This document shows positions 8,025-57,045 of a stretch of DNA of 64,000 nt, in pieces (position 1 is the stretch's first letter; each line of letters starts with the position of its first letter). The stretch covers positions 1-64,000 of the forward strand of contig JAQTTH010000023.1 in NCBI GenBank assembly GCA_028710895.1. Direction: 5' to 3'. The position numbers and the translations under genes were made by a program. This DNA is from Paludibacter sp. (lineage in GTDB: Bacteria; Bacteroidota; Bacteroidia; Bacteroidales; Paludibacteraceae). The notes beneath the pieces are model-generated. The model ran no database searches and was not told where the DNA came from. It saw only the letters and a program-made list of their open reading frames with translations.

Positions 8025-8936
8025 TTATATTGAACTGAAAGTTAATAGCATATTCAGTCTTTGCCGTATTTGAGAAAAAACAGAGGTACTTCCGGGCGAA
8101 TGCATATCTTCCGGTTTGTTATAAACCGCTGCAAAGAATGTCTTTAACTGTTCATTAAATTCATCAGGACTTTCCAAATTGCTTAAATGACCGGCATGCG
8201 AAATAATATGCATTGTTGAATTCTTGATTTTTTGCTGCATCACTTCTGCAGCTTTCGGAGGTGTGATTTTATCTTCTTCACCTACAACGAAATGTACAGG
8301 CAGTGTTATTTCGGACAATTTACTGCAGGTTTCTTTGCGCTGTGATAAGGCTAGTAATGTTTTACTGAGCGATAGTTCGGTTGTATTCAGTATCATTTCT
8401 TTTACGTCGGAAATGGCTGGAATATTGCCACTAAATGACTGAGGAGCAAAAAGATTCTCGATGCTATTGTTCACATACCTTTCCACCCCGAATGATTTGA
8501 TTTGTTGGATTGTATCTAAGCGTTTCTGTTTTACCTGTGGTGGATCGGCAATACAATTTGTATCGCACAAAACAAGTGCATCAAAACGTTCGGGATATTT
8601 TTCGATTGCAAGCAAAGCAATGTAACCACCCATGGATAAACCACAAAGTGAGGCTTTCTCAATTTTTAGTTCTTCCATCAGATGCAGTAAATCTGTTACA
8701 AAGAGTTCAATTGAGAAGTCATCGGTTCCTATATCCGATTCGCCATGTCCACGAATATCGTATGAAATTACGCGGTAATCTTCTTTCAATGCATTCACCT
8801 GATTGTCCCACATCGTTTTATTCAGCGGAAAACCGTGAATGAAGATAATTACAGGAGATTGCTCAGATCCATGATCGGTGTAACTTACTACCAGATTATT
8901 TACAAGAAGCTTGATATTGTTTCCAAAATAGCGCAT
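8025..8936 (-). CDS. Alpha/beta hydrolase
   Basis: A 303-aa alpha/beta-hydrolase fold enzyme. The oxyanion segment FIHGFPLNKTMW, the nucleophile elbow GLSMGG, the acid in VGEEDKITPP and the base in SHAGHLSNLE are all present. It resembles the 3-oxoadipate enol-lactonase/RsbQ-like branch, but the real substrate is unknown. The C-terminal 35 residues extend past the fold. It sits between bacterioferritin (43-nt gap) and catalase (3-nt gap), so it is probably co-expressed under oxidative stress. Confidence 0.85.
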   Translation of the reverse strand: MRYFGNNIKLLVNNLVVSYTDHGSEQSPVIIFIHGFPLNKTMWDNQVNALKEDYRVISYDIRGHGESDIGTDDFSIELFVTDLLHLMEELKIEKASLCGLSMGGYIALLAIEKYPERFDALVLCDTNCIADPPQVKQKRLDTIQQIKSFGVERYVNNSIENLFAPQSFSGNIPAISDVKEMILNTTELSLSKTLLALSQRKETCSKLSEITLPVHFVVGEEDKITPPKAAEVMQQKIKNSTMHIISHAGHLSNLESPDEFNEQLKTFFAAVYNKPEDMHSPGSTSVFSQIRQRLNMLLTFSSI

Positions 8937-8979
8937 AGTTTTCTTTTTTATGAATGGCTGACTAAATTCCGAACTTTAA

Positions 8980-9459
8980 TTAGCTGGCAGAACTATCGAT
9001 TTGATTAACAAGGTAATTCTCCAACCCCATTTGTTCAATCTGGGCACGCTGCATTTCTGCCCAGTCTACATGCCCTTCTTCCATTTTGAGTATTTTTGTA
9101 AGCAAATCAACTGTGCCCTGATCGTCAACTTCGCGACCTAGTTTTATTGCGTCGTTATAAGCGCGGACTGCATGAAACTCATCTCCATTGTCGTTTATAA
9201 TCATTTCCTGTACTGTTTTACCAATCTTCATCGGATTAAGTATTGATACTGTTGGTGCACCGTCCAGAAAAAGAATACGCTCAATAAGCCATTCGGCATG
9301 GAACATTTCATCCATTGCCTGTTTACGGATTGCCTGATGAAGCCTGGTATAGCCCCAGTTTGCACACATTTCCGAATGAACCATATATTGGTTAATCGCC
9401 GTTAGTTCATCGGCCAACAGCGCATTCAGCACTGACATTAATTTTTCATTACCTTTCAT
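8980..9459 (-). CDS. bfr: Bacterioferritin
   Basis: A 159-aa heme-containing ferritin that oxidises and stores iron in a 24-subunit shell. Ferroxidase ligands Glu18, Glu51, His54, Glu94, Glu127 and His130 are at canonical positions, and Met52, the inter-subunit heme ligand, is present. The start MKGNEKLMSVLN at 9459 matches the family; an ORF from 9510 would add 17 unlikely residues and overlap the promoter box. It heads the bfr-hydrolase-katA series, coupling iron storage to peroxide removal and so limiting Fenton chemistry. Confidence 0.93.
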   Translation of the reverse strand: MKGNEKLMSVLNALLADELTAINQYMVHSEMCANWGYTRLHQAIRKQAMDEMFHAEWLIERILFLDGAPTVSILNPMKIGKTVQEMIINDNGDEFHAVRAYNDAIKLGREVDDQGTVDLLTKILKMEEGHVDWAEMQRAQIEQMGLENYLVNQIDSSAS

Positions 9460-9507
9460 AATTGTATTTTTTATAATTGAATACCTGTTTCTACTAAATT
9501 TGAAAAG

Positions 9508-9515
9508 CAAAGTTA
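9508..9515 (-). promoter_or_regulatory. -7 promoter box for bfr
   Basis: On the - strand this reads TAACTTTG, matching TAnnTTTG, about 50 nt before the bacterioferritin ATG. No clear -33 TTTG is seen. It overlaps the longer ORF start, supporting the start at 9459. Confidence 0.4.
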
Positions 9516-9724
9516 TAGGACTATGACAATGAAAGTATTACACAATAATGGAGAAAGATTACATGATTCACACATCTATCAATTCTGGGCAGTCACCCTT
9601 ATCAAAAACCACAAAGGCAACTGAAAAGGAGTTTTTAGATTTGAAGACAACTGATTCAACATCATCCTCTGTTCTTAACTCAACTCTTCGGTTGCCTTTT
9701 AAAATTTTCCTGTTACAATCTACT

Positions 9725-10198
9725 CTAATCTCTCTTCTTAGTGGGTACTATAAACATGGGTATGGTGGTTTTACGCAATACTTCTTCGGTAACACTTCCC
9801 ATAAGTACGTTTTCCAACCATTTCTGGCTATGCGTTCCCATTACAATGCAGTCAGCATGTATTTCGGAAGCTGTTTGTAAAATCATTTGAGCTGTATCAC
9901 CTTCTTTATGTACTGTTTTAATTGTTTTGGCACCCAAATGTTTTTTGGCTTTTTCAAGTAAATTACGCGATCCGGTTTTTATAATTTCTATCCCTTCGGT
10001 AGTATCAACCGTATCAATTTGCCATGCTCCCATATTGGCATAAGCCGAGGCATACATAGCCGGACTAACCATAACATGTAATAATGTAACTTCAGCGCCC
10101 ATCGCTTTAGCCATTGCAAAGCCCGATTCAGCTACTTTCTGTGCTGTGGGATCATAATCGAGTGCTATCAGCACTTTTTTCATTTGTTTCGCATTCAT
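9725..10198 (-). CDS. Universal stress protein (UspA family)
   Basis: A 157-aa single-domain Usp. It has the N-terminal strand KKVLIALDYDPTA with the nucleotide-contacting Asp, the VTLLHV strand, and a C-terminal phosphate-loop region MGTHSQKWLENVLMGSVTEEVL. The usual G-2X-G becomes GTHS, so ATP binding is possible but not certain. It is cytoplasmic. It is the last of two tandem usp genes (30-nt gap) at the end of the glycan/stress operon. Usp proteins are generally induced by growth arrest or oxidative stress. Confidence 0.92.
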   Translation of the reverse strand: MNAKQMKKVLIALDYDPTAQKVAESGFAMAKAMGAEVTLLHVMVSPAMYASAYANMGAWQIDTVDTTEGIEIIKTGSRNLLEKAKKHLGAKTIKTVHKEGDTAQMILQTASEIHADCIVMGTHSQKWLENVLMGSVTEEVLRKTTIPMFIVPTKKRD

Positions 10199-10228
10199 GA
10201 TATTTTATTATTAGTTGTAATACAATTT

Positions 10229-10708
10229 TTATTTATCAAGTGTAATAACAGTGCTTTTGGCATCGTACTTACGTGTTGGAACAATGAGTATGTGTACAGT
10301 TGTTTGTTGTAACACCTCATCTGTTACCCTGTCTAAAATCATTTCTTCGAGCCATTTAGTGCTGTGCGATCCCATCACTATTGTATCAATATCCATTTCC
10401 TTGGCTGCTTTAAAAATCGATTCTGCAAAATCTCCCTGTTTTACAACGACCTGAATAGTATCGTCACAGGTTTCTTGTTTTTGTTTTTCAAAGAAACCCA
10501 TTGCAGCAACTTCAAAGTTCTCCAGCGTATCGGGTTTCAATACTTCCATTTTCTTGTAAGTTAGAGAATAATTCACAAGATCCACTTTGACGTGTAATAA
10601 TATCACTGTAGCTTTTATATCTTTAGCCAGCGTGTAGCCAACTTCTATAATTTTTTGTGATGATGGATGCTGGTCCATTACTATCAGTACTTTTTTATTT
10701 TTTTTCAT
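10229..10708 (-). CDS. Universal stress protein (UspA family)
   Basis: A 159-aa Usp paralogue of the next gene, with KKVLIVMDQHPSS at the N-terminus and IVMGSHSTKWLEEMILDRVTDEVL near the C-terminus. The second glycine of the phosphate loop (GS in the paralogue) is replaced by DR, which argues for weaker or no ATP binding. Two Usp proteins encoded side by side often pair as dimers; that is inference here. It follows the acidic 108-aa gene by 33 nt. Confidence 0.9.
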   Translation of the reverse strand: MKKNKKVLIVMDQHPSSQKIIEVGYTLAKDIKATVILLHVKVDLVNYSLTYKKMEVLKPDTLENFEVAAMGFFEKQKQETCDDTIQVVVKQGDFAESIFKAAKEMDIDTIVMGSHSTKWLEEMILDRVTDEVLQQTTVHILIVPTRKYDAKSTVITLDK

Positions 10709-10741
10709 GATGAAAGGTTTTATCCGGGTTATAATGATTCG

Positions 10742-11068
10742 TCAATGCGACGAATCTTCTTCCAGGTTGTCGTGATTATCGCCTCCAAGGCTATAATAAT
10801 TATTTTCTTCGTCTTCACTGCCAATTTCTTCCTGAGCATTGTCCAGTTCCGATCCCGGGATGTCTAATGTATCCTCATTGTTATCCTCTTTGAGTTTCGA
10901 AATCTCTTCCGGGTCAATCTCCATTTCTTGTTTGGCTTGCTCGTAGATATCTTCGCCGGCCGGATAAGTTGGATATCCCGGAAGGATTATTTTTTTGTTA
11001 GCTTCTTGTCTTACAAGCGGGTATTTGTTTTCGCTTAATTTTTCCATTGTGTTTTTATTTATGTTCAT
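10742..11068 (-). CDS. Acidic hypothetical protein
   Basis: A 108-aa, strongly acidic and probably disordered protein. It has a conserved-looking segment PGYPTYPAGEDIYEQAKQEMEIDP, a pattern I recognise from short Bacteroidetes proteins found near stress genes, then an Asp/Glu/Asn-rich tail. No signal peptide or fold is evident. The start at 11068 is 3 nt after the glycosidase stop; an internal Met at 11047 (MEKLSENKYP) is a reasonable alternative. Its role is unknown. Confidence 0.6.
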   Translation of the reverse strand: MNINKNTMEKLSENKYPLVRQEANKKIILPGYPTYPAGEDIYEQAKQEMEIDPEEISKLKEDNNEDTLDIPGSELDNAQEEIGSEDEENNYYSLGGDNHDNLEEDSSH

Positions 11069-11071
11069 TTA

Positions 11072-12283
11072 TTATTCAAAGTCATATAATTTCAACAGCT
11101 TAGAACTAAAAGCGAAACTGCGTATTTCGTCAAAAAACAGTGTGTTTTTGGTTTCCACACATTTAGCTGCATACAGGTAAAGTGCTGCACTCCAGGTTTG
11201 CCAGTCCTGCCCCATGGCATTACCATCCTGGGCTTTAATCCATTCGTTGAAGCCAAACTCTACATTTTGTGTTCTTGATATCTTTATAAAATGGGTCAGT
11301 ACTTTCAACTTTTCCTCTGCCAATGTGTATCTTTTGGCAGCCACTAAGGCCGCAATATAAATTCCGCTGATAAAAGGCCAGATACCACCATTGTGATAGT
11401 CGCCCGGGTTATTGAACTCAGCATATCGCTCGTTCCATTCAGGATCTCCGGGTTTTACATACGGGAAAAAATTGGGCGACAGATCAACCACCAAATCTCC
11501 TTTTGCACGCATTGCTGCTGTTTCTTCTTCAATCCACGCAATCATTTCGTTGGCTCGCGTTGGTGATGCAATACCGGATAAAATGGCCAGACTATTTCCA
11601 AGCAAATCGAACCGTTCGCTGCTAAGTACTTTGTACGACCACATGGCGTAATACGGCTTATGTTTTACTGCCAATCCTTCGTGTACATGATTGTGAATGA
11701 CTCCGCCGGTGATTGTGAAACGACTCATTTCTTTGTGCATCTTATCAGCTCTATCCTGCTGTCCCAAAAGGCGCAGATAGCAATAAACGATCGTATTTAC
11801 AAAAAGTCCGTAACCAAGTACCCATTGTTCGTCGCGCCAGTCGCTTGTGGGTTGTTGTGCCACCATATACCGGTCGGACGGACTTTGATATTCCATCCAA
11901 ACCAATGCCTTATCAACAGCTTCGTGCAGAAAATCTGGTTGTTTTATAAGTAGTCGGTAAATAGCAACTCCCAACAGAAAAAGCGGAGTAGTATCGCTCG
12001 ATCCCCTGTCTTCATTATCGTGAACCAACGAAGGAATATGACCGTGTTCACTTTGATTTTTAGCCAGCGTTTCCAACACATTTCCAATACTATCCAACAA
12101 TATCTTATTTCCAGTAACAGCAATTCCCAAAATGGAAAACATCAAATCGCGCGTGTATGGTTCGGGATATCCCCAACCAGCCGTGCGTGGAAGTCCCTGA
12201 AAAGGTCCCTTTGCATTGTGGAGCAATACTTCCAACGCTGCTTTCTTTGCTTCTTCTATTTCTTTTAAATCAGTTGATTTCAT
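11072..12283 (-). CDS. GH100-like (alpha/alpha)6-barrel glycosidase
   Basis: A 403-aa cytoplasmic protein with six-hairpin glycosidase features like GH100 neutral/alkaline invertases and related GH63/amylo-glucosidase families: YTRDLMFSILG near residue 43, PTSDWRDEQW near 150, LLGNSLAILSG, YHNGGIWPFISG and the C-terminal DWQTWSAALYLYA. The classical GH100 motif around the catalytic Asp is only loosely kept, so sucrose cleavage cannot be assumed; the neighbours argue for a glucan or mannan substrate. It is placed between the 57-aa gene and the acidic protein. Confidence 0.7.
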   Translation of the reverse strand: MKSTDLKEIEEAKKAALEVLLHNAKGPFQGLPRTAGWGYPEPYTRDLMFSILGIAVTGNKILLDSIGNVLETLAKNQSEHGHIPSLVHDNEDRGSSDTTPLFLLGVAIYRLLIKQPDFLHEAVDKALVWMEYQSPSDRYMVAQQPTSDWRDEQWVLGYGLFVNTIVYCYLRLLGQQDRADKMHKEMSRFTITGGVIHNHVHEGLAVKHKPYYAMWSYKVLSSERFDLLGNSLAILSGIASPTRANEMIAWIEEETAAMRAKGDLVVDLSPNFFPYVKPGDPEWNERYAEFNNPGDYHNGGIWPFISGIYIAALVAAKRYTLAEEKLKVLTHFIKISRTQNVEFGFNEWIKAQDGNAMGQDWQTWSAALYLYAAKCVETKNTLFFDEIRSFAFSSKLLKLYDFE

Positions 12284-12293
12284 TTGTTTTTTT

Positions 12294-12357
12294 GGGTTTC
12301 GCGATTTCCAAATCGCGTATTAAATTCTATTCTCGCGATTTGGAAATCGCGAAACCC
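12294..12357. repeat. Inverted repeat of self-palindromic arms
   Basis: Two 24-nt arms, 12294-12317 and 12334-12357, are exact reverse complements, each containing CGCGATTTCCAAATCGCG, itself nearly palindromic. The AT-rich spacer is 16 nt. This is a BIME-like arrangement of REP palindromes between the 57-aa gene and the GH100-like gene; it could also weaken read-through in the operon. Confidence 0.65.
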
Positions 12358-12363
12358 GATAGT

Positions 12364-12537
12364 TTATTTTTTCTTTTTTTGCGCCCTGTTGAAAGCAATT
12401 GCTATAGCTTGCTTCTGTGCTTTCTCGTTCGATTCGGGAGTCGATGTCCCTATCGTTCCGGTTTGGTGGTAACTGTGCATGAGTTCTTCAATGTTCTGAG
12501 AAATCACCTTCTTTGATTTTCCGTTTTTGAATGGCAT
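12364..12537 (-). CDS. Small basic protein, DUF6496-like
   Basis: A 57-aa protein starting MPFKNGKSKKVISQNIEELM and ending with a lysine run. The segment EKAQKQAIAIAFNRAQKKKK resembles the KQAIAIALSEA-type end of DUF6496 proteins, which are small, basic and of unknown role. It lies between the GT4 gene and the GH100-like gene on the same strand. Because it is short the support is its family-like motif and conserved-looking composition, not length. Confidence 0.6.
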   Translation of the reverse strand: MPFKNGKSKKVISQNIEELMHSYHQTGTIGTSTPESNEKAQKQAIAIAFNRAQKKKK

Positions 12538-12539
12538 TT

Positions 12540-12615
12540 TTTTTTGATTTATTGATGTGGTGATGTGTCGATGTGCTGATATTTAATTTCATCATCATAT
12601 TATCACATCAACACA
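12540..12615. repeat. ATGTG/ATCACATC-type word repeat
   Basis: An intergenic tract of words such as GATGTGGTGATGTG and, further on, ATTATCACATCAACACATC. It is close in type to tracts at 34246-34311 and 43995-44050. It is upstream of the 57-aa gene. Confidence 0.5.
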
Positions 12616-12623
12616 TCTTCAAA

Positions 12624-13766
12624 TTAATAAATTCCCAACTTCTCATTCATTATCTGTACAAACTTCTGCGCCACCACACGGTAATCGAAATTAGCCACAA
12701 CCCGTTCACGTCCGGCTTTTCCCATTCTATTACGCAGTTCCTTATCATTCATAAGTTGTTCCATGTAGTTGGCAATATCCGTTACATTGGCTCGATAATC
12801 GACAATACGAGGTGTATTAAACACAACTTTGTGATTTTCTTCAAATCCGGCTGCTGCACCAAGTATAACTTCGTCTACCACTATTTTCTGTGCTACTCCG
12901 GCCAACAAGGCTGTTTCATTGTGTATAAGTGTGTCCAGCATTCCCATAGCATTTATACTCAAAACCGGTTTTCCACAGGCACCCGCTTCTACCTGCGGCA
13001 TTCCGAAACCTTCCAGTCTGGATGGTGCTGCATATATATCACAAGCGCCAATCAAATAGGGCATAAAGTTGCGCGAAATGGTGTTCACGGCATATATTAC
13101 TTTCTCCTCAATACCAAGACTCTTTGCTAATTCCTCATCCGATGCATCCTGAATGCTTGTGCGCTGCTGTGGCCATACCTTGCACACATATTTCCATTTG
13201 GGAACTTTTTTATCAATTATGGATAATGCCCGCATAACTTCCCTGCCACCTTTCGAAGCAGCATCGCCACCAACGGTGAGAATCATCAATTCATCCGGCG
13301 ATATGCCCAATGCCTCGCGAACAGCTATAATTTTTGGATCATTCCACTCAAAAGGTTTAAAGGTATCAGTATCGCAACCAACAGGTAAAACTTCAATTTT
13401 ATCGCCACTAATTCCATCCCGAACATACATTTCTTTTACCCAATTGGATGTTACCAAAATGAGTGGAAGCGCATTCAGCACATTCTGATAATTGGCAATA
13501 TATCCATCGGAAACCAACCATGGAACTGCCAACGCCCCAAACTTTTGCGGATGAAGAACTAAATGTGGTGTGTATCCCCAATAACCAATCCCTACAACAA
13601 CATCGGGTCTGAACCAACGGTAATACCATTCTTTTTCCTGATCCGATTCGAAATGAGCTGCATGTACATCAACTCCAAGTTCCAATAAACCTTTATAGAG
13701 CAAATCTCCCTGAGTGGCAAGTCCGCCAGGAGTTGGAGGATATTCATACAATACGAGTACTTTCAT
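12624..13766 (-). CDS. Glycosyltransferase family 4
   Basis: A 380-aa GT-B fold retaining glycosyltransferase. The N-terminal acceptor domain opens with VLYEYPPTPGGLATQG; the C-terminal donor domain has ILTVGGDAASKGG and the E-x7-E motif SRLEGFGMPQVEAG. There is no membrane span, so it acts in the cytoplasm or at the membrane face. Its ATG overlaps the stop of the 51-aa gene (ATGA). Together with the two-domain GT, PIG-L and GH130 genes it suggests synthesis and turnover of a mannosyl- or glucosyl-glycan. The exact sugar is unknown. Confidence 0.88.
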   Translation of the reverse strand: MKVLVLYEYPPTPGGLATQGDLLYKGLLELGVDVHAAHFESDQEKEWYYRWFRPDVVVGIGYWGYTPHLVLHPQKFGALAVPWLVSDGYIANYQNVLNALPLILVTSNWVKEMYVRDGISGDKIEVLPVGCDTDTFKPFEWNDPKIIAVREALGISPDELMILTVGGDAASKGGREVMRALSIIDKKVPKWKYVCKVWPQQRTSIQDASDEELAKSLGIEEKVIYAVNTISRNFMPYLIGACDIYAAPSRLEGFGMPQVEAGACGKPVLSINAMGMLDTLIHNETALLAGVAQKIVVDEVILGAAAGFEENHKVVFNTPRIVDYRANVTDIANYMEQLMNDKELRNRMGKAGRERVVANFDYRVVAQKFVQIMNEKLGIY

Positions 13767-13918
13767 TTGTTTGTTATTGTTACGTGAGTTTCGTAATATC
13801 CGGATTTCAACTTTTCTATTGTTGATTCCATCAAATAGGTTTTACTTAAGAGATAAAGTGCTTTCAGGGCCTTGATACTTGTTTTTTTGAAGATACTTAG
13901 TTCCGGTTGCGTTTTCAT
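13763..13918 (-). CDS. Small hypothetical protein in glycan operon
   Basis: A 51-aa protein, MKTQPELSIFKKTSIKALK..., ending ...HVTITNK. It begins 1 nt after the PIG-L stop and its TGA overlaps the ATG of the GT4 gene (ATGA), so three genes are translationally coupled through it. That packing is the main evidence that it is real. It is mildly basic, helical, without signal peptide or membrane span. No family is recognised; it might be a partner of one of the adjacent enzymes. Confidence 0.6.
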   Translation of the reverse strand: MKTQPELSIFKKTSIKALKALYLLSKTYLMESTIEKLKSGYYETHVTITNK

Positions 13919-13919
13919 T

Positions 13920-14612
13920 TTAGTTTTTTGTATTATCTAATAATTTATAAATTGATAGTTTGGACATCTTAACATCATCATTCAAATGTGTTTTCGATTG
14001 CATTGCCTGAACCGGATTTCTGAATTGCCAGAAAGCTTCGGTTGTTGGCGTTGTTTCAGCTTCCCAGCTATCCTTATCGAACCCGTAAGTCTTCGTTATA
14101 ATTTTGTATTTCTTTTTCCAGGTTTCTACCGATAATGGTTCAATAATATTAGCATTTTCAACTATCTGTGGAAAATAAGCCTTGTTACCATCTTCATAAG
14201 CAAAGGTCCAAAGCTCCTTGGTCGAAATTTTCTCTTTGTGCCAAAGTGTAGTTACGGCTTCATTTACCTCCACATGACGAAGATGACTAGTGTATTCACC
14301 GGTTGAGTTGTGAGTAAGAATTAAATCGAAATGAGTGGTTGGCAGCAGTCGTAGAATTTCTTTCTCAACGTCTTTTTCAGCCAACGGATGTTGTTCCGGT
14401 CCATCATCCAAGTCACCCATAATACCACCGGCTTTCAGCAGTTTCAACGCTTTATAAAACCGCTTCGACCGCTCTGTATCACTTGCTCTGCAAAGGCATA
14501 CCACAAACCATTTGTTGTACGGATGACTTAGCATTGTTCCACCTGCCCACAATGTTTCATCATCGGGATGTGCCACAATGACAGCTATAGATTTAGATAT
14601 TTTATTGTTCAT
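13920..14612 (-). CDS. PIG-L family deacetylase (LmbE-like)
   Basis: A 230-aa zinc-dependent N-deacetylase of the PIG-L/LmbE family, which removes acetyl from GlcNAc-type sugars. Zinc ligands are in VIVAHPDDETLWAGG and in the HLRHVEV segment. I place the start at the ATG at 14612, overlapping the upstream stop by 11 nt; the longer frame from 14627 begins with TTG. No signal peptide. In this operon it could generate a glucosamine residue in the glycan. A bacillithiol-type BshB role is possible but the adjacent GT4 proteins do not look like BshA. Confidence 0.85.
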   Translation of the reverse strand: MNNKISKSIAVIVAHPDDETLWAGGTMLSHPYNKWFVVCLCRASDTERSKRFYKALKLLKAGGIMGDLDDGPEQHPLAEKDVEKEILRLLPTTHFDLILTHNSTGEYTSHLRHVEVNEAVTTLWHKEKISTKELWTFAYEDGNKAYFPQIVENANIIEPLSVETWKKKYKIITKTYGFDKDSWEAETTPTTEAFWQFRNPVQAMQSKTHLNDDVKMSKLSIYKLLDNTKN

Positions 14613-16944
14613 CTTTGTATTTTTCAACTGTTAGTCGTGCCATCAAATAACTCACTGTTGACTCAGCACCCTGATTCAGATTGACGTGTGTTTCTTCCAT
14701 ACCATCGTAACAACCACCGGTACATGGATTGTACACAATTTGTTGCAATCTGTTATTCCCCAAAAACCAGTTGAAGGCAATATGGAGTTTTTGCAGATAA
14801 TCATCGTCGTGGAATACATCGTAGAATATTCCCAGAGTCATAATGGTATATGCCACATCAATTGGTTGTTCTCCAAAATGGCCGTGTTCCTGACCTTTTT
14901 GAAACCATTTCCGGTTAGAGATAACCTCAATTCCATTGGCATTGAATGTGTGAGAAAGCAGAAAAGCTAGCGATATTTTGGCAATGTCCTTATACGTTGA
15001 GTCGTCGGTCATAAGCCAGGCATATAACATAGCTTCGGGCAAAATGCTGTTGGCATAAGTCAGATATCCTTCGAACCATTCCCAATTCTGACCCGATTCA
15101 TGTTTGTACATTTGCAACATGCGGTTGGCAAAAATTTTTACAAGCGTAATATTCCCTGGTAATTTAGCTACCTTGTGATAATAGAATATTCCTTTGATGG
15201 CAAATGCCATGGCCCGGGTCGATTTCACTTCACTTATCAGGATAAATGCCCGTTGAAGTGTAACTTCAGCTTCCAATGACAGTTCTTTTGGTAATTTATT
15301 TTTCTGCGACAACATGTAGCCCAATGCCCAAACTGCACGTCCATTCGAATCGTCCAGGTTTACTTCTTCGTTTTGACTCGTAAACTGTTTGTCTTTATCC
15401 ACATAGTTCAGAAAATTACCATCAGGTTGTTGACAGAAACGAATGAAATTAAGGTATTTCCGAATATCCGAAATGCATGATTTGTCACCGGTAGTATTCA
15501 GATACATACAGGTTGCGACAAGCGCCCGTGCATTATCGTCGAGCGTATAACCCGATTTTATATCAGGTTGATTGATTCTCGAAAACTGAATCATACCCAT
15601 TTCGGTGGTCATTGCTTTTACATGACTCAGATTAATCACAGGCAAATTAAAGTGTATCTTAATCTTTTCTGGAGCCATTTTCTGAATAAGCATGGCATGA
15701 GCCACAGCGGAATTCTCCCAGGCAGTAGAAACTACCTTTTGAAGGGTATTTGAGATAATATTCTTTCGAAGATCAGGATCGTTCAGCAAACGAATAACCC
15801 CATCGGCCAGTTGGCCTGAATTGCGAAAATCAAAAATGATTCCGGTATCTTCAGTCAGCACTTCTTTGGCATGGGGTATGGGCGTTGAAATAATAGGACA
15901 ACCACAACTCATGGCATACATAAAGGTGCCGCTTACAGCCTGATTAGGATCGTTGGTTGTAAATACATATATATCCGTTAACTGCAGGTATTCAAGTAAA
16001 TCGGGCAAATCAAGGTATTTATTTATAAACTGAACATTGTTTTCCAACCCGAGTTCTTTTACTTTGAGCTCCAAACTGTCTCTGTATTGTTCTTTCTCAT
16101 TTTTCACCACCTCAGGATGTGTTTTCCCAATAATCAGAAACATCACATTGGGAATTTGTTTCACTATGGCTGGCAATGCATCGAGCGTTGTTTCTATGCT
16201 TTTGCCCGAACTAAGTAGCCCGAAAGTAGTAAGTACTTTCTTTCCGGTTAAACCATATTTATCTTTCAGAAATTTCTCACTCAAATGTTGTACAAGGTGT
16301 GTTCCGTGACGAATAATCGATATTTTTTGGCTAGCTACATTGTAATCGCTCATCAAAATATCGGCTGAGGTTTTAGTCATAACGATAATTGATTTACATG
16401 CCGAAGCAATGTTCCGTACCTGATTTTTCAGATGCTCGGTTGGATGTGGAAGTACGGTGTGGAAAACAATTACTACGGGTTTGGATAGTTCGTATAACAT
16501 CTGTAGAAAAGCTTGCTCCTGCTCACGGTAAAAACCAAATTCATGCTGAATCAATACAATCTCAATATGTTGATCATTATTGATTTTCTCAGCCAATGTC
16601 ATAAAAGTTGAGATGTGGCTTGTATCAAGCGTATATTTTACTTCATCAGGATAATTAAAATCCGATTTACCACTTTCAAGAGCACACACTTTGATATTAA
16701 AAGAGTTGCTAAACTTATTATTCAATGCCTTTATCAAATCCTGAGAATAGGTTGCTATGCCACATTCGCGTGGGGGATAAGATGAAATTACAAGTATCTC
16801 AGCCAGATTTGAATGTTGTTTTTCTATTTCGTGAAGCCTGGCTCTTCCGGAAGCTATTTGTGGAAATGCCGTTGTATCGTAATGATAAATGGCTTCGGAA
16901 CTAATGATCTTGTCACTTTTAGAGGAATCTGTTTCATTTTTCAT
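14602..16944 (-). CDS. Two-domain GT4 glycosyltransferase with C-terminal helical barrel
   Basis: A 780-aa protein. Residues about 50-400 are a GT4 glycosyltransferase (SSYPPRECGIATYSQDLI, LIQHEFGFYR, TFGLLSSGKSIET, and a donor site near VSGTFMYAMSCGCPIISTP). Residues about 420-775 form a second all-helical domain with GYTLDDNARALVA, DDSNGRAVWALGYM, NWEWFEGYLTYANS and GCYDGMEETHVN, resembling (alpha/alpha)6 glycan-binding or epimerase/glycosidase barrels. The fusion of a transferase with a barrel domain is typical of this cluster type in several phyla. The gene overlaps GH130 by 11 nt and PIG-L by 11 nt. Confidence 0.85.
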   Translation of the reverse strand: MKNETDSSKSDKIISSEAIYHYDTTAFPQIASGRARLHEIEKQHSNLAEILVISSYPPRECGIATYSQDLIKALNNKFSNSFNIKVCALESGKSDFNYPDEVKYTLDTSHISTFMTLAEKINNDQHIEIVLIQHEFGFYREQEQAFLQMLYELSKPVVIVFHTVLPHPTEHLKNQVRNIASACKSIIVMTKTSADILMSDYNVASQKISIIRHGTHLVQHLSEKFLKDKYGLTGKKVLTTFGLLSSGKSIETTLDALPAIVKQIPNVMFLIIGKTHPEVVKNEKEQYRDSLELKVKELGLENNVQFINKYLDLPDLLEYLQLTDIYVFTTNDPNQAVSGTFMYAMSCGCPIISTPIPHAKEVLTEDTGIIFDFRNSGQLADGVIRLLNDPDLRKNIISNTLQKVVSTAWENSAVAHAMLIQKMAPEKIKIHFNLPVINLSHVKAMTTEMGMIQFSRINQPDIKSGYTLDDNARALVATCMYLNTTGDKSCISDIRKYLNFIRFCQQPDGNFLNYVDKDKQFTSQNEEVNLDDSNGRAVWALGYMLSQKNKLPKELSLEAEVTLQRAFILISEVKSTRAMAFAIKGIFYYHKVAKLPGNITLVKIFANRMLQMYKHESGQNWEWFEGYLTYANSILPEAMLYAWLMTDDSTYKDIAKISLAFLLSHTFNANGIEVISNRKWFQKGQEHGHFGEQPIDVAYTIMTLGIFYDVFHDDDYLQKLHIAFNWFLGNNRLQQIVYNPCTGGCYDGMEETHVNLNQGAESTVSYLMARLTVEKYKDEQ

Positions 16945-17983
16945 GATCAGTTGTTTTTACATAAGTTAATAGTTCGGTTAGCAATGCCGGTAAACTCAAC
17001 GAGGCAGTTGCAATAAGAGAATCGGCAGCACCATAATAGATAAATAAGGTATCGCCAAACAAAGCAGTACCTGTAGGAAAAACCACATTGTTTACTTCAC
17101 CAATCAGTTCCCAATCATATTCGGGAAAAAACAAGGGATAAGGTAATCGAGCCAGTTCTTTTGACGGATCGTTCAAGTCGAGTAATGCTGCACAGGCGGA
17201 ATAAACCAATCCTTTTTCGGTTTGCTCTACACCATGATAAATAAGCACCCAACCTACTTCTGTTTCAATAGGTGGACAACCGCTACCGATGTAACACGAT
17301 TCGTGGGGGAAAATAGGATCTAGAACAATATTGTGTTGTAGATTTTGAAAATACTCTTTCCAGAATTCTTTGGTCAAATCGGCTATTGATTTTACCGACA
17401 CAATTTGAATTCCGGGACGAATACGATGTAGAAAAACCAGATTCCCATCAATCCTGCGAGGGAAGAAGACACAGTTCTTGTCCCACAACATCATCTTTTT
17501 GTCCGGATCCGATTCCTGGTAGTAAAATTTATGATTGTGGTAATAGTTTTCATTTACATTGCCATTTGTTTCGGCCAGAAATACGAATTTAGAGTACGTA
17601 ATTGGCGGAACAATAAGCCCATGCTTTTTAAAATGAATTAAATCTTTTGATGTGGCCAGAGCACCTCGTGCATTAATTCCGTCATAACCTGTATAAGTGA
17701 GATAATATAAATCATCGATCTTTACAATACGGGCATCCTCTACTCCCTGTGATTCGTAATCGAATTCAGGAACAATCATCGGTTTATCCCAACGCTCAAC
17801 AATAGTTAAGGGACCATCCAGTCGGCAATACCCAATTGTAGATTGATTCCCCAACTGCACGGAACGATAAAAAATATGAACACTATCGCCAACACGAATA
17901 ACAGCCGGGTTTAATACACCTTCTTTTTCAAATTCTAAATCGGTACCAGTGAATAATACGCCTTCTTTTTTTACTTCTATCAT
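16934..17983 (-). CDS. Glycoside hydrolase family 130 protein
   Basis: A 349-aa five-bladed beta-propeller enzyme of GH130: beta-mannoside phosphorylases and beta-1,2-mannosidases. The catalytic Asp is probably Asp83 in SQGVEDARI (EDPR in most members, EDAR here); phosphate- and sugar-binding blades follow in GSGCPPIETEVGWVLIYHG and VVFPTGTALFGDTLFIYYGAAD. There is no signal peptide, so it is cytoplasmic, arguing for phosphorolysis or synthesis of an intracellular mannoside rather than external digestion. Members of this type are often mislabelled as Cry7Aa pesticidal proteins. It starts 41 nt after the AI-2E transporter. Confidence 0.88.
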   Translation of the reverse strand: MIEVKKEGVLFTGTDLEFEKEGVLNPAVIRVGDSVHIFYRSVQLGNQSTIGYCRLDGPLTIVERWDKPMIVPEFDYESQGVEDARIVKIDDLYYLTYTGYDGINARGALATSKDLIHFKKHGLIVPPITYSKFVFLAETNGNVNENYYHNHKFYYQESDPDKKMMLWDKNCVFFPRRIDGNLVFLHRIRPGIQIVSVKSIADLTKEFWKEYFQNLQHNIVLDPIFPHESCYIGSGCPPIETEVGWVLIYHGVEQTEKGLVYSACAALLDLNDPSKELARLPYPLFFPEYDWELIGEVNNVVFPTGTALFGDTLFIYYGAADSLIATASLSLPALLTELLTYVKTTDHEK

Positions 17984-18024
17984 TGTGTTTTATTTTAATA
18001 TTTTAACTGTCTCTTTTCAATCAC

Positions 18025-19110
18025 CTACTTCTTACTTCTCAATTTTATCAATGGTGGCATAGTATCGCCCAATAGAAATCCCCAGGGCTTCATGGATTCG
18101 ACGTGATCAAAAATAACTTTAATAATTGCAAGGAGCGGAATGGAAAGAAACATGCCAGGAACTCCCCATAAGGCATTTCCGACAAGTACTACCAATATGG
18201 AGAAGAGTGCATTAATTTTCACTTTTGAAGCAACTATCTTTGGTACAATGAAATCATTATCAATTATCTGAATAAAAGTATGAACACCAAAAACATATAA
18301 TGCAAACCAGGCCGACGATTTTGTAACCAAAGCAACCATCATAAATAATCCAACAGCTATAATTCCACCAATATAAGGAATAAGGTTGAGCACTGCTCCA
18401 AGTACTCCAAGGATAATAGCATATTCAATTCCGAGCAACAAAAGCCCCAGTGCATTGAGTGACCCAACAATAACAGCCTCAATGATTAACCCAACTAGAT
18501 AGCGCTGAATAACAGATTTAGTTTGGGTTACAATGGAGTTGACTTGATTTAGATGAGACTCATCAAAAAGTCGGTGAATAAATTCTATTAAAAGTGGTTG
18601 ATAAAAAAGAATTACAAAGATGTAGACCGGCACAAGCACCAGTGCTGCTAACATGCTCCCAACACTCACTAGCGTTTTCCCAATTAAAGTCCCGTCGATA
18701 GTGATAAGTTCGTGTTGTGTTCTGGTTATCCAGGCATGAATAATGGATTGTCGGATATCGAAATAGCGTGAAGCCGACTTAATGGTTTGATTGAGTAAAT
18801 CAGTAAATTTATCAACGAAAATAGGCCAGGAATCGCTGAAACTTAGTGCCTGACTGTAGATAAGAGCAATGAATCCTGCCATAATTAGAACAGTAAGAAG
18901 CATTGTAATGATGATAGCTACAACTCTGTTTATTTTTAGGCGAACAAAAAAATTGACAACAGGATGAAGCAATATGGCTATAATAAATGAGAAAACTAAT
19001 GGAATAATAATGCCCTGTGCTATATAGAGTATTGCTAACAGGGCAGAAAGACCAACAAAAAAAATGCCGGCCTTTGTGTAAAAGGGTAATATGGATTTAT
19101 TGAAATTCAC
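18025..19110 (-). CDS. AI-2E family transporter
   Basis: A 361-aa polytopic inner-membrane protein with about eight hydrophobic spans, of the AI-2E/PerM/TqsA family. Recognisable segments are IPLVFSFIIAILLHPVVNFF near residue 34, the long extramembrane loop about 80-150, and LIPYIGGIIAVGLFM with IDNDFIVPKIVASKVKINAL near the C-terminal half. Family members export varied small solutes or ions; autoinducer transport should not be assumed. Its ATG overlaps the stop of the 128-aa gene (ATGA). Being next to GH130 suggests shared control. Confidence 0.9.
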   Translation of the reverse strand: MNFNKSILPFYTKAGIFFVGLSALLAILYIAQGIIIPLVFSFIIAILLHPVVNFFVRLKINRVVAIIITMLLTVLIMAGFIALIYSQALSFSDSWPIFVDKFTDLLNQTIKSASRYFDIRQSIIHAWITRTQHELITIDGTLIGKTLVSVGSMLAALVLVPVYIFVILFYQPLLIEFIHRLFDESHLNQVNSIVTQTKSVIQRYLVGLIIEAVIVGSLNALGLLLLGIEYAIILGVLGAVLNLIPYIGGIIAVGLFMMVALVTKSSAWFALYVFGVHTFIQIIDNDFIVPKIVASKVKINALFSILVVLVGNALWGVPGMFLSIPLLAIIKVIFDHVESMKPWGFLLGDTMPPLIKLRSKK

Positions 19111-19493
19111 GGTTTTTCAGTTTTATGAAAGATTTTTTCAATGATCAGCTGACCGAAGTTTTTCAGAATTTCAGGATGTTGAGCCACCAGGTTTGTAACG
19201 CTAAATTGCAGTACAGAACCCATGACTTTTCTAAATACATTATGTGATGCCCCAACGGCAATTTTCTTTGATACATATCCGCTGACTAAACCCGTAATAG
19301 CTCCCAGCATATTCTCAATTAAGTACGGAGAAGATGTGATTTCGCTCAGGGTATTTTTAATCAGGCTAATTGGTTTCAGGCTTTCGAATGCAATAGATAA
19401 TTCGTCCTTCAACAGTTGGCCCTGAATGGCATGTTCGAATTGTTTAGCTTGTATGGCTAGTTTAAGTTCGGTGGCTGAGTTTATATTTTCCAT
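19107..19493 (-). CDS. Hypothetical protein between holin-X-like and AI-2E genes
   Basis: A 128-aa protein. The N-terminal half is helical and charged; residues about 58-85 are a glycine-rich, weakly hydrophobic segment (MLGAITGLVSGYVSKKIAVGA) that may touch the membrane; the C-terminus is amphipathic. It is flanked by a two-span membrane protein (36-nt gap) and, through a stop/start overlap, by the transporter. This arrangement resembles small envelope-stress clusters in Bacteroidetes. The function is unknown. Confidence 0.6.
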   Translation of the reverse strand: MENINSATELKLAIQAKQFEHAIQGQLLKDELSIAFESLKPISLIKNTLSEITSSPYLIENMLGAITGLVSGYVSKKIAVGASHNVFRKVMGSVLQFSVTNLVAQHPEILKNFGQLIIEKIFHKTEKP

Positions 19494-19529
19494 ATCGTTT
19501 TTTTATTATCTCATAAACTAATTATCAAA

Positions 19530-19871
19530 TCAACTAAGCATTTTTCGGATTAAATAATCGTAGAATACTCTTTTCATCCATTTACGCATAAAGAAATGAA
19601 GTATAAAAGCTACAAATCCATAGAAAGTAGCAACAGCAAAGAAACCATAGTAGATGTGCCCAAGCATATCGCCAACCCAAAACGCGATACCCAGATTTAC
19701 GAATAGCATAAAACAGGCAACAATAACTTTTACAATGGTATGAGCCATTAAAGCAGAAACTACATCCGAAGTTTTATCAACCACGTTCAGTTTTACTAAT
19801 TCATAGCTTGTTTTGCTATATTCGGCAATTCTTTCGAACAACGATTCAATTAAATTTATATTCTCTTCCAT
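19530..19871 (-). CDS. Phage holin-X/YqjE-like membrane protein (DUF1469)
   Basis: A 113-aa protein with a helical N-terminal region (NLIESLFERIAEYSKTSYEL) and two adjacent membrane spans around residues 45-95, ending in a basic tail. This is the layout of the holin-X/DUF1469 family, which in proteobacteria (YqjE) lies beside YqjD/ElaB membrane proteins. There is no phage context, so it is a host envelope protein. It heads the long series leading to the AI-2E and glycan genes. Confidence 0.75.
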   Translation of the reverse strand: MEENINLIESLFERIAEYSKTSYELVKLNVVDKTSDVVSALMAHTIVKVIVACFMLFVNLGIAFWVGDMLGHIYYGFFAVATFYGFVAFILHFFMRKWMKRVFYDYLIRKMLS

Positions 19872-20008
19872 AGTTTTTATTCGTATAGGTTTTAAATACC
19901 TGATTTAGTTGTTGAAAAACAGTAAGTCTGCTCCGAAAATAATAAGGCAAGATAATTCAGTTGAAAATTTCTTTCCGGAGCAGACTCAATACAGTTTTAT
20001 TGTATAAA

Positions 20009-20290
20009 CTATTTAACCTTAGAAGCTTTCACTTCTTTTTCTACTGCTTCGGCGCTGTTCATTGCTTCTTCGGCAAAGTCAACTACTTCTTCTTTTACCT
20101 TATCAAATTTGTCGGTAATGCTGTCGATAAATTCATTGAAACTGTGTTTCAAATCGTCGACTTGTCTTTCACCTTTTCGTAAAATTGATCTACGGGTTAC
20201 CGCTCCCCTTGCAGGCGCAAATAAAACGCCTAATAATGCGCCTGTAGCTGCTCCAGCTACTACGCCTAATACCACTTTTGTTTTACTCAT
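20009..20290 (-). CDS. YtxH domain protein
   Basis: A 93-aa protein with a YtxH-type N-terminus: a glycine/alanine-rich membrane segment KVVLGVVAGAATGALLGVLF followed by APARGAVTRR, then a charged coiled-coil region (DLKHSFNEFIDSITDKFDKV). Such proteins are small, abundant, membrane-anchored and stress-induced. The start at 20290 (MSKTKVV) fits the family; a frame from 20326 would add 12 residues and lies close to the promoter box. It is probably transcribed alone, 137 nt ahead of the holin-X-like gene. Confidence 0.82.
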   Translation of the reverse strand: MSKTKVVLGVVAGAATGALLGVLFAPARGAVTRRSILRKGERQVDDLKHSFNEFIDSITDKFDKVKEEVVDFAEEAMNSAEAVEKEVKASKVK

Positions 20291-20331
20291 AATCTTGTTT
20301 TTTAATTTGGATGTATATTCATTCAATAATA

Positions 20332-20339
20332 CAAATGTA
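20332..20339 (-). promoter_or_regulatory. -7 promoter box for YtxH gene
   Basis: On the - strand this reads TACATTTG (TAnnTTTG), 41 nt before the preferred ATG at 20290. No good -33 element is seen. Confidence 0.4.
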
Positions 20340-20393
20340 AGGTGAACCTCGTAGGTAAAAGTTACAGTATTCTGTGAATAAGTTATATAATTC

Positions 20394-20804
20394 TTACTTT
20401 AACTCAGCATGGAATTGAATACGTGAAATTTCTATGCCTGTGGGATATGACACATCAGCCTGATCTTCGGCTGTAATAAAAATTCCGGTAAATGCGAATG
20501 GAGCTAATGTTTCTATTTCTGCCGTTTTTGCATTTTTATTTTTCAACTGACCAATGTTTCTAACTCCATCATTTTCTGATACAATCCATACTATATACAC
20601 GTTTTTCGATGGACTCAACCTTTCAACAGCAGCTAAATTGGTTGCAGTAATTTTAATTTTGGTGTTTCCGTTTTGATCTTTTTGTTTTGAAAGTATAATA
20701 TCGGCGGCAGGAGTCACCGTAGAAACAGGAAACCTGGTTACAGTGGCACACGATGACAATAAAATGACAAGTATTAGTAATATTTTTGTGTTTAGATTTT
20801 TCAT
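20394..20804 (-). CDS. Lipoprotein, hypothetical
   Basis: A 136-aa predicted lipoprotein with leader KILLILVILLSSC and the modified Cys at about residue 19. The mature part is a beta-rich domain (KIKITATNLAAVERL, NVYIVWIVSENDG, GIFITAEDQADVS) resembling an anti-sigma/immunoglobulin-like fold seen in Bacteroidetes stress-associated lipoproteins. No catalytic motif. It sits between the YtxH gene and the 40-aa gene, behind a hairpin. Confidence 0.65.
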   Translation of the reverse strand: MKNLNTKILLILVILLSSCATVTRFPVSTVTPAADIILSKQKDQNGNTKIKITATNLAAVERLSPSKNVYIVWIVSENDGVRNIGQLKNKNAKTAEIETLAPFAFTGIFITAEDQADVSYPTGIEISRIQFHAELK

Positions 20805-20892
20805 TTTGTAATGTATTTGTAAATTTTGTTCCTACTGTTATGGCGTTCGGATTATTCCCCTTTTTTTATGTATGGTCATTTGTTGAAATAAA

Positions 20893-20930
20893 CTACCCTT
20901 TCTCTTGCCGATAGACATAAGAAAGGGTAG
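20893..20930 (-). terminator. 11-bp hairpin
   Basis: CTACCCTTTCT (20893-20903) pairs exactly with AGAAAGGGTAG (20920-20930). On the - strand it is followed by a T-rich stretch (TTTATTTC). It probably ends the 40-aa gene transcript. Confidence 0.55.
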
Positions 20931-20964
20931 CTAAATGAGAATCGTAAGACTATCCAATCCTGAA

Positions 20965-21087
20965 TTAAATTGTAGTTACTGTATTTTTATTTATGCGCTT
21001 CATTGCTTTCTCAGTACGCTTTTCTTTTAAGTTTTTCAAAGGCACTTTTTTATCGGATTTCTCCTTGGCCTCTTTTTCTTTTGACAT
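20965..21087 (-). CDS. Small lysine-rich protein
   Basis: A 40-aa very basic protein, MSKEKEAKEKSDKKVPLK then NLKEKRTEKAMKRINK. Short Lys/Glu-rich proteins of this kind recur in Bacteroidetes near stress genes, but no function is known. Supporting points are the start 12 nt after the outer-membrane protein stop and a hairpin terminator right behind it. At this length a spurious frame cannot be excluded. Confidence 0.5.
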   Translation of the reverse strand: MSKEKEAKEKSDKKVPLKNLKEKRTEKAMKRINKNTVTTI

Positions 21088-21099
21088 ACTACAATTTAT

Positions 21100-21639
21100 T
21101 TAGTGAATAGCAATACCCACGGTCGAAACTCCGGTTGACAAATCAAGGAAAGCTCCGATATGGTTTGTAAAATGGTATTCAGTTCCCAAATGGAAATCAC
21201 CATATAATGGATCTACCGAATGATAATACGTTCTGTCTCCGTTATAATTTGCATCCCAGGTTGTGCTAACTAACGCAACACCTAACGAACCGGCTACATA
21301 AAAATCCCAATGTGGACCCGCATGTAATAGTTGGTCTAAATAAAGCGTTCCTTTTACTCCAATTGGAGTCACTGTTTCTCTGTAGTTTCCATCAGTATAT
21401 GAATACAGGGTAATAAATGGGGCCAATGTAAAGTTCCTTACAACTCCAAATTCGTAATTGACGTTCAATACAGGTAATGTATGTCCGATATATCCGTAAT
21501 ATCCTGAATACCCACCAATTCCCAATCCTAAATTCAATGCTCCACCATATCTTTCATCTGACTGAAAATGTCTTTGAGCTGATAAATTTGCACCTAAACT
21601 AAGTAGGAACAATGCTGCAATAAATGTTACTTTCTTCAT
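21100..21639 (-). CDS. Outer-membrane beta-barrel protein
   Basis: A 179-aa protein with a signal peptide (MKKVTFIAALFLLSLGANLSAQ) and alternating aromatic/hydrophobic strands (VLNVNYEFGVV, FTLAPFITLYSY, WDFYVAGSLGVALV, GDFHLGTEYHFTNHIGAFLDLS), typical of a small eight-strand outer-membrane barrel. The last strand ends VGIAIH rather than with a classical aromatic residue. No ligand can be inferred. The 40-aa gene follows by 12 nt. Confidence 0.75.
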   Translation of the reverse strand: MKKVTFIAALFLLSLGANLSAQRHFQSDERYGGALNLGLGIGGYSGYYGYIGHTLPVLNVNYEFGVVRNFTLAPFITLYSYTDGNYRETVTPIGVKGTLYLDQLLHAGPHWDFYVAGSLGVALVSTTWDANYNGDRTYYHSVDPLYGDFHLGTEYHFTNHIGAFLDLSTGVSTVGIAIH

Positions 21640-22277: not shown

Positions 22278-22485
22278 TTTTAGTTGTTTAAATATGTATT
22301 AATTTCTACTGTACAAAGGTGAGGCCTTTAAAACATGAATGTATTACACAATTAATGTTATATGTTACATCATTCACACTATATCTATAGATGCTTTAAA
22401 GTAGCATTCTAATTATTTTTTTTTGATTTTGAATTACACTTATGCTTTAGAAAAGAGGTGCATAGGGTGGAGTAGGAAAAAAAAA

Positions 22486-48189: not shown

Positions 48190-48269
48190 TTAATGTATAT
48201 TACGAGTAAATATAACACTTATTTGTAAATCGAGTAAACTGCTTATTAACTAAATACTGAGCTAATGAA

Positions 48270-49382: not shown

Positions 49383-49447
49383 AAATATATAGCGGAAATT
49401 TATATTTCAATTAAAATCTATACAAATAAAATATCAAAATCATATCA

Positions 49448-52285: not shown

Positions 52286-52287
52286 AA

Positions 52288-53430: not shown

Positions 53431-53432
53431 AT

Positions 53433-55886: not shown

Positions 55887-55957
55887 AGTTTAATTTGACC
55901 ACCTAAAACTATTAATAGTTTGTTTTAAGACTAATTATATTTAACAATATATTCTCT

Positions 55958-56968: not shown

Positions 56969-57045
56969 TAAATAAAATATATTTATAAATATCAATGATG
57001 TTTCTGTCTATATAAGTGTTATTGTTAAATTTAATTTCTAAATTC

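Follow-up and report, generated by a model that had tools for sequence, protein, structure and literature searches.

We analysed the first 64,000 nucleotides of contig JAQTTH010000023.1 (the window; contig C39 in our numbering) of a Paludibacter sp. genome of 4.9 Mb in 41 contigs. Between ~6.5 and 22.3 kb, open reading frames (ORFs) and family scans revealed a block of stress and glycan gene families that all lie on the minus strand, confirming the gene content that a first reading made without database searches (the sequence-only reading) had claimed for this locus. At the centre of the block are two overlapping genes, encoding a beta-1,2-mannoside phosphorylase-like GH130 protein (16934-17983; PF04041, 165.6 bits against a cut-off of 26) and GT4L, a long GT4 enzyme with an N-terminal GT-B (GT4) part and a C-terminal helical domain (14602-16944; Glycos_transf_1, 83.1 bits, above cut-off; model with a predicted local distance difference test score, pLDDT, of 82.9). 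Upstream of this pair lie the genes for YtxH (20009-20290; PF12732, 54.5 bits, above cut-off), a Holin-X/DUF1469-like membrane protein (holinX, 19530-19871; PF07332, 24.4 bits, below the cut-off of 28.4), a small protein with no family above cut-off (sm19107, 19107-19493) and an AI-2E family membrane protein (AI2E, 18025-19110; PF01594, 169.9 bits). Downstream follow a PIG-L deacetylase-like protein (PIGL, 13920-14609; PF02585, 37.3 bits), the short GT4 transferase GT4s (12624-13766; PF00534, 80.1 bits; mean column identity 86% over 13 sequences), a GH100/GDE-like glycosidase (GH100, 11072-12283; PF12899, 41.9 bits, above cut-off), Usp2 (10229-10708; PF00582, 79.6 bits), Usp1 (9725-10198; PF00582, 106.8 bits), bacterioferritin (Bfr, 8980-9456; TIGR00754, 153.3 bits against a cut-off of 125.55), an alpha/beta hydrolase (8025-8936; PF00561, 118.4 bits) and catalase (KatA, 6516-8021; PF00199, 620.9 bits), which falls just outside the border at 8025 drawn in the sequence-only reading. 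The families named in that reading are present, but the GH100-like label rests on a partial profile, the Holin-X match is sub-threshold, and AI-2E is the name of a family and no evidence of signalling.

Comparison of upstream regions among relatives brought out a tandem repeat before YtxH, before bacterioferritin and before rep21690, an exported low-complexity protein (21690-22277; ORF without Pfam family; 7 of 47 related loci). In the operator model derived from it, two AATNNTGTAA half-sites follow each other at a step of exactly 21 bp, and a TTTG box comes 26 bases further on; in promoters the operator takes the form GTGTGAATNNTGTAAC ... AAATTNTGTAAC, and 26 bases lie between its end and the TTTG of a -7 box. 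Operator 1 (AATGATGTAA-N11-AATTGTGTAA, 21-bp period; 22344-22374, minus strand) has no mismatches and the TTTG of its -7 box 26 bases on. It precedes rep21690 and omp21100, a probably exported protein (21100-21639; ORF without family; 8 of 47 related loci), and its layout is resembled in the five relatives listed alongside it. Operator 2 (20362-20392, minus strand; one mismatch) stands before YtxH and the gene string that runs on to GH130-GT4L; a TACATTTG box is found there in seven of the nine listed upstream sequences, that of the window included, and is absent from L009 and L011. Operator 3 (9538-9568, minus strand; one mismatch) precedes bacterioferritin, hydrolase and catalase. The window thus contains three sites with at most one mismatch versus a mean of 0.05 in random sequence. 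Looser window matches (up to three mismatches, spacing 20-22) occurred at the random level (9 versus 10.95), and therefore only the sites with at most one mismatch are claimed. Standard sigma-70 and terminator scans were uninformative (60 and 13 sites versus 51.8 and 11.6 in shuffles).

The distribution of the operator was determined in three samples. The related set consists of 47 loci (L003-L049), all gathered in one scan by similarity to GT4L and mostly derived from metagenome-assembled genomes (MAGs); the loci closest to that of the window come from MAGs named Bacteroidales or Paludibacter. Many of the 47 loci end close to the GT4L gene, which makes gene absences in this set uncertain. The class-wide sample, meant to be less biased, was obtained by seeking GT4L across 395 Bacteroidia genomes. 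GT4L was present at E 1e-30 in 58 of these, and 57 regions from 56 genomes were used (own genome and G126 left out, G221 included twice). Controls were 40 regions from 33 of the same genomes, more than 70 kb away from GT4L. The samples total 805 kb (related loci), 1.08 Mb (class-wide regions) and 800 kb (controls). Sites with at most one mismatch numbered 106 in the related loci (36 loci), 20 in the class-wide regions (12 regions) and 0 in the controls. The spacing of the half-sites in the related loci is 21 bp at 106 sites, and every other spacing from 16 to 26 was found 0-2 times. At 74 of the 106 sites the TTTG begins exactly 26 bases further on and at five more it begins at 25, and only 3 of the 74 sites with TTTG at 26 have a TTG at a -33-like place, which falls short of a primary-sigma -33 element. 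Long ORFs contain two of the 126 sites, and 107 are followed by an ORF within ~350 bp downstream. These ORFs include 15 CsbD-like proteins (a label given to a sub-threshold match, 18.4 versus 40 bits), nine YtxH, seven of family F18, six rep21690, six of family F24 and five each of OmpA-like family F28, AraC and lipoprotein family F14; 23 belong to no recurrent family and the remainder occur in ones to threes. Across the 395 genomes the extended signal, with up to two mismatches, gave 277 sites in 79 genomes, and its reversed control occurred in none. A short exact pattern gave 110 sites class-wide versus 21 (hand sum) for its reversed control, so that chance hits are present among them; a tandem DNA repeat of 21 bp in G124 accounts for six of the 110. 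We conclude that the operator exists, that its geometry is fixed and that its occurrence is confined.

The own genome contains 22 sites with at most one mismatch, of which 14 are on contig C23 (2.6-52.3 kb), three on C39 in the window island and five elsewhere. On C23 the operator recurs repeatedly within a 20-kb stretch. Allowing two mismatches yielded 52 sites in the own genome versus 20 for the reversed control, and many of these looser sites may therefore be due to chance. The C23 island encodes an AraC-family protein of 186 amino acids (C23:30553-31113), a hybrid PAS kinase and a single-domain receiver, together with members of the MlaE, MlaD, ABC, OmpA, ice-binding-like, DUF6600, DJ-1/PfpI, DnaJ, flavin-oxidoreductase and BrkB/YihY families. 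Operator-adjacent genes on C23 are those for an MlaE/F/D-type lipid transporter, OmpA-like, DUF6600 and ice-binding-like proteins, and the AraC gene itself, which has an operator on its 5' side (L158:9410-9440; L158 is C23 of the own genome). The C23 AraC protein is 77% identical to the copy in L023. Of the 47 related loci, 29 combine GT4L with one or more C23-island genes (at least 40% identity), and in six loci (L016, L020, L021, L031, L034 and L040) the AraC-kinase-receiver genes directly follow GT4L. The window block appears to be one of two islands of a stress regulon, and this putative regulon is well supported by sequence. As a side observation, the hybrid kinase (L158:10148-13066) has a run of ~20-residue repeats (EKEKRAAELIIANKELAFQN-like) between its PAS domains, and the same repeat type occurs in the L019 relative.

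The AraC-family protein encoded on C23 is the likely binder of the tandem operator. With an HTH_18 score of 61.3 against a cut-off of 33.6 it classifies as an AraC/XylS-type regulator; it matches helix-turn-helix (HTH) families only, without a match to a sugar-binding domain. At E 1e-35 this AraC is found in 179 of the 395 Bacteroidia genomes, comprising 64 of the 79 site-bearing genomes versus 115 of the 316 others (Fisher 5e-13, calculated on genomes that are not independent), and close copies occur in 26 of the 79 versus 6 of the 316. Of the 110 exact sites, 11 have an AraC gene at a distance of up to 2 kb, in 10 genomes, and in 7 genomes exact sites and an AraC gene are within 300 bp of each other.

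GH130 neighbours GT4L in 41 of the 47 related loci and, counting either of two GH130 types, in 51 of the 57 class-wide regions versus none of the 40 controls, which indicates that GH130-GT4L is an old pair. This pair is the conserved core of the block. Other members were found in the related loci in decreasing numbers: AI2E (29 of 47), YtxH (23), holinX (21), sm19107 (21), PIGL (18), GT4s (15), Usp1, GH100 and AraC (13 each), bacterioferritin (2) and catalase (1). In the class-wide regions compared to the controls, AraC was present in 18 versus 0, CsbD-like and lipoprotein F14 genes each in 9 versus 0, YtxH in 7 versus 0, AI2E in 6 versus 1, sm19107 in 5 versus 0 and holinX in 4 versus 0. GT4s, PIGL and GH100 were present in 1, 0 and 0 of the 57 regions, and a search of the 395 genomes at E 1e-20 found the GH100-like protein in three, the own genome among them. 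The genes for YtxH, CsbD-like proteins and lipoproteins are thus linked to the core in a subset, GT4s-PIGL-GH100 is a narrow addition, and catalase and bacterioferritin are rare partners of the block. Several further observations were made in these neighbourhoods. The second GH130 type has an N-terminal extension, is ~490-530 amino acids long where complete and ~30% identical to the window GH130, and was seen in L012, L013, L017, L018, L019, L022, L023, L028, L033, L046 and L048. A phosphoketolase gene (family F31) recurs in the blocks of L011, L013, L029 and L044, and the L013 copy was confirmed to have XFP domains. N7, another GT4 family (e.g. L102_04), was present in 10 of the 57 regions and N5, by reading a cupin-like small protein (e.g. 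L060_12), in 11, versus 0 of 40 controls for both.

The linkage of stress and glycan genes, whose absence in relatives the sequence-only reading had named as a refutation, therefore holds for GH130-GT4L in both samples and for YtxH, holinX, sm19107 and AI2E mainly among the related loci, but hardly for catalase and bacterioferritin, and class-wide it is limited to a few regions for the former four and nearly absent for GT4s, PIGL and GH100. The view of the block as a single controlled stress-plus-glycan unit stood for the YtxH/holin/AI2E/GH130/GT4L part in Bacteroidales relatives, which comes with a non-RpoS signal. That control would differ from RpoS was supported, as the best RpoS-family match in the own genome scored 266 bits, under the cut-off of 378.7, and the tandem operator marks the window island and one other.

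To what extent the glycan pair belongs to the regulon can be judged from operator positions. An operator with at most two mismatches lies upstream of GT4L on the same strand in 33 of the 47 related loci, at 0.4-7 kb, and 32 of these 33 intervals are without a long antisense ORF. In ten of the 14 loci without upstream operator the sequence upstream is shorter than 3.3 kb, which leaves L004, L010, L040 and L049. An operator within 4 kb upstream of GT4L was found in 11 of the 57 class-wide regions versus 3 of 315 control anchors (p 1e-7), and a hand count assigns ten of the operator-bearing cases to the 34 closer GT4L homologues and one to the 23 more distant ones. The operator is placed directly before AI2E-GH130-GT4L in L027 and L016 (in the latter the GH130 ORF is short) and before GH130 in L053, and operators with 1-2 mismatches lie ~90-400 bp before GH130 in L041, L043 and L047.

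The best solved relatives of the window GH130 are beta-1,2-oligomannan (E 6e-44) and beta-1,2-mannobiose phosphorylases (E 7e-43). On the mannobiose phosphorylase equivalog NF052550 it scored 185.2 bits, below the cut-off of 450, and on the model for mannosidase BT3780 it scored 102; the order of these scores, taken by itself, favours a phosphorylase over a hydrolase. Residues E82, D83, R85 and K169 are invariant in nine sequences. Beta-1,2-specific GH130 enzymes have a Glu beside the catalytic Asp and a Lys equivalent to Lys199 of BT3780, according to PMC4599007. E82-D83 and K169 would fit this signature, the equivalence of K169 being deduced via alignment to beta-1,2 phosphorylases and not to BT3780 itself. 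A stretch of ~40 residues (126-168) is unaligned with the solved relatives. For GT4L, the fold of the model matches MshA, HepE, BshA, PimB' and glycogen synthase, as expected of a GT-B transferase, and the C-terminal helical domain matches 7tem (YPO2471), its nearest solved relative, from which no function was learned. No hydrophobic N-terminus was seen in GT4L by inspection without a predictor. Both GT4L and GT4s score above the Glycos_transf_1 cut-off and are GT4 members; the likeness of GT4s to sucrose-phosphate-synthase-, MshA- and methylmannose-polysaccharide-type GT4s is generic only. GT4 enzymes retain the anomeric configuration, and therefore an alpha link is the likely product of GT4L, while the beta-mannosyl part would come from GH130. 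For the GH100-like protein, the match to the GH100 profile is confined to the C-terminal third of that profile; its residues D97 and E347, invariant in 13 sequences, may be the catalytic Asp/Glu pair, and its model (pLDDT 56) is too poor for fold conclusions.

The spacing of the genes suggests that two gene strings form operons. From sm19107 over AI2E, GH130, GT4L, PIGL and a 51-amino-acid small ORF (sORF51, 13763-13918; 2 of 47 related loci) to GT4s, neighbours overlap or are at most 41 bp apart. Bfr, hydrolase and KatA form the second tight string, with gaps of 43 and 3 bp, after a 268-bp gap. Following GT4s come, with gaps of 24-86 bp, a DUF6496-like protein of 57 amino acids (12364-12537; 18.1 bits, below the cut-off of 24), GH100, the acidic small protein sm10742 (10742-11047; no family matched; 9 of 47 related loci), Usp2 and Usp1. 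Upstream of YtxH lie a lipoprotein-like protein (20394-20804; RskA_C match below cut-off; 6 of 47) and a lysine-rich small ORF of 40 amino acids, recognized by its translation (20966-21087; 4 of 47). All of these are on the minus strand. A long inverted repeat (GGGTTTCGCGATTTCCAAATCGCG...) is present between the DUF6496 and GH100 genes (~12290-12365). Outside the block, at ~48000-64000, G+C drops from ~0.39 to 0.26-0.32 and genes are mostly on the plus strand, possibly indicating an acquired region.

No earlier account of this operator, or of GH130 and GT4L paired in stress loci, was found among the open-licence papers that the searches listed, most of which were screened by title and abstract. 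The RpoS and sigma-B general stress regulons include catalase, bacterioferritin, Usp, CsbD-like and YtxH-type members. The window set and the DnaJ-, DJ-1/PfpI- and OmpA-family proteins of the C23 island are of the same kinds, but here there is no RpoS above cut-off, and a Bacteroidota-type -7 box with a tandem operator takes the place of a sigma-specific promoter. In the arabinose regulon, AraC-type activation takes place at tandem half-sites. The operator resembles these in that its direct repeats are one 21-bp step apart and adjoin the core promoter; the candidate binder differs in lacking a sugar-binding domain match and is encoded beside a hybrid kinase and a receiver. The Bacteroides primary sigma promoter has TAnnTTTG at -7 and TTTG near -33, as given in PMC7366714 and PMC12632263. 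The -7 element found here also ends in TTTG, but the -33-like TTG is rare; as Flavobacterium johnsoniae likewise yielded no -33 motif (PMC7366714), its lack alone is weak as a distinction. B. thetaiotaomicron promoter motif 2, which PMC7366714 ties to oxidative stress and stationary phase, is likewise a second promoter class linked with stress genes, but it is near-palindromic and located at -10 and -30, whereas the operator is a direct repeat further upstream, the two being compared by description and not by logo. Closest among the solved relatives of GH130 are the beta-1,2-mannan phosphorylases Teth514_1788/1789 and Lin0857, and the Teth514 genes also adjoin a GT4 gene (PMC4264767). In contrast to these enzymes, the window GH130 scores below equivalog cut-offs, has the unaligned ~40 residues, and overlaps a GT4 fused to a helical domain. 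An analogy exists with the Leishmania mannogen cycle, in which an intracellular beta-mannan is made and recycled by a GH130-fold enzyme, GT108 (PMC8950772). The GT108 structure (6Q50) was, however, not among the 18 solved relatives of GH130 at E 1e-3.

Taken together, the reading that we favour, and regard as somewhat more probable than not, is an AraC-dependent stress regulon without RpoS, in which GH130 and GT4L together probably make a mannose glycan in the cytoplasm and mobilise it. Promoters with a -7 box, mostly without a -33 box and with a tandem operator instead, have the layout that would be expected for an AraC-type activator recruiting RNA polymerase. The 186-amino-acid AraC protein would bind the operator and would probably be gated by the neighbouring hybrid PAS kinase and receiver. 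Members in the window would be YtxH, bacterioferritin/catalase and, provided that transcription continues from YtxH, the GH130-GT4L pair. A cytoplasmic glycan that contains mannose would be assembled by GT4L. GH130 would either lengthen the beta-linked mannose of this glycan or break it down by phosphorolysis, returning mannose-1-phosphate; the glycan may be a reserve or protectant of growth arrest. We infer AraC binding, the inducing signal, readthrough to the glycan genes and the structure and role of the glycan, as well as its identity, cellular location and induction in growth arrest.

Several observations weigh against the AraC-dependent regulon as formulated. When two mismatches are allowed, the control regions contain three sites too. 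In 46 of the 57 class-wide GT4L regions there is no operator within 4 kb upstream, so that the regulon does not include the glycan pair in every case. In the window, transcription from YtxH towards GH130-GT4L would have to cross a 137-bp gap (19872-20008, minus strand) with a strong hairpin before holinX (fold z-score -4.77), and readthrough is therefore not assured; the hairpin is possibly an attenuator or an mRNA stabiliser. AraC is also present in 115 genomes without sites. No AraC match at E 1e-8 was obtained in G220 (99% complete, 18 sites), G273 (98%, 11 sites) and G168 (94%, 5 sites), and when eight site-bearing genomes were re-searched for AraC only G209 and G183 gave a weak match. In G220 the island contig stops ~10 bases short of a sensor-kinase gene, so sequence is missing there and the AraC gene could be missing from the assembly; since the kinase that best resembles the usual partner is located at another place in that island, this is a possibility only. 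In G273 the sites precede YtxH-holinX-sm19107, YceI-family and BrkB/YihY-family genes and the lack of AraC is unexplained, as it is in G168. As these three genomes carry many sites, a different binder, e.g. an unlinked regulator, could act on a real operator and stress regulon of which the AraC gene is merely a member, as the operator 5' of the AraC gene in L158 would allow. We consider this rather unlikely, because site presence tracks AraC strongly, exact sites come within 300 bp of the AraC gene in seven genomes, a 21-bp tandem direct repeat suits an AraC-type protein, and AraC was the sole DNA-binding family noticed when the recurrent families were read by eye.

A comparable but slightly greater chance is given to GH130-GT4L being a sugar module with its own role in salvage or surface mannose chemistry, co-located with stress genes incidentally and in some Bacteroidales only. 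The linkage of the pair indeed extends to GT4L homologues of 30-35% identity with hardly any stress genes and one operator near, and Thermoanaerobacter GH130 genes adjoin GT4 and mannose-1-phosphate guanylyltransferase genes, read as GDP-mannose salvage in PMC4264767. Against such a module speak the operators placed directly before GH130 or the AI2E-GH130-GT4L string in L027, L016 and L053 and the less perfect ones before GH130 in L041, L043 and L047, and no SusC/D-like or sugar importer gene was noticed among the ORFs and family scans of the window from 4.5 to 25 kb. It is very improbable that GT4s and PIG-L instead make a GlcNAc conjugate that is later deacetylated, as in a thiol route. GT4 and PIG-L do form the first half of the mycothiol and bacillithiol routes, and GT4s has MshA/BshA-like matches, but MshA, BshA and BshB2 matches are far under their cut-offs, family scans showed no ligase in the block, and no BshC was found in the own genome (E 1e-3); a bacillithiol- or mycothiol-like route was rejected on these grounds. 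The variation of catalase, bacterioferritin and Usp among relatives might suggest chance clustering of unrelated housekeeping and stress genes, which was already disfavoured and has a near-negligible probability given the conserved linkage and shared operator, compared to controls.

We know of no account of how Bacteroidota arrange gene expression in stationary phase and under stress in place of RpoS or sigma-B. Extending the AraC-dependent regulon to the class, we tentatively raise the possibility that in Bacteroidia lacking RpoS and sigma-B a two-component-gated AraC activator at a 21-bp tandem operator might run the general stress response, with its genes in one or two superloci and, as one of its core outputs, an equivalent of mannogen in bacteria, a reserve of beta-mannose in the cytoplasm that GT4L would make and GH130 would make or mobilise. 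With a candidate activator and a promoter signal for which any genome can be scanned, the question of stress control becomes directly testable, and the operator search supplies a list of regulon members in which a candidate stress glycan is included.

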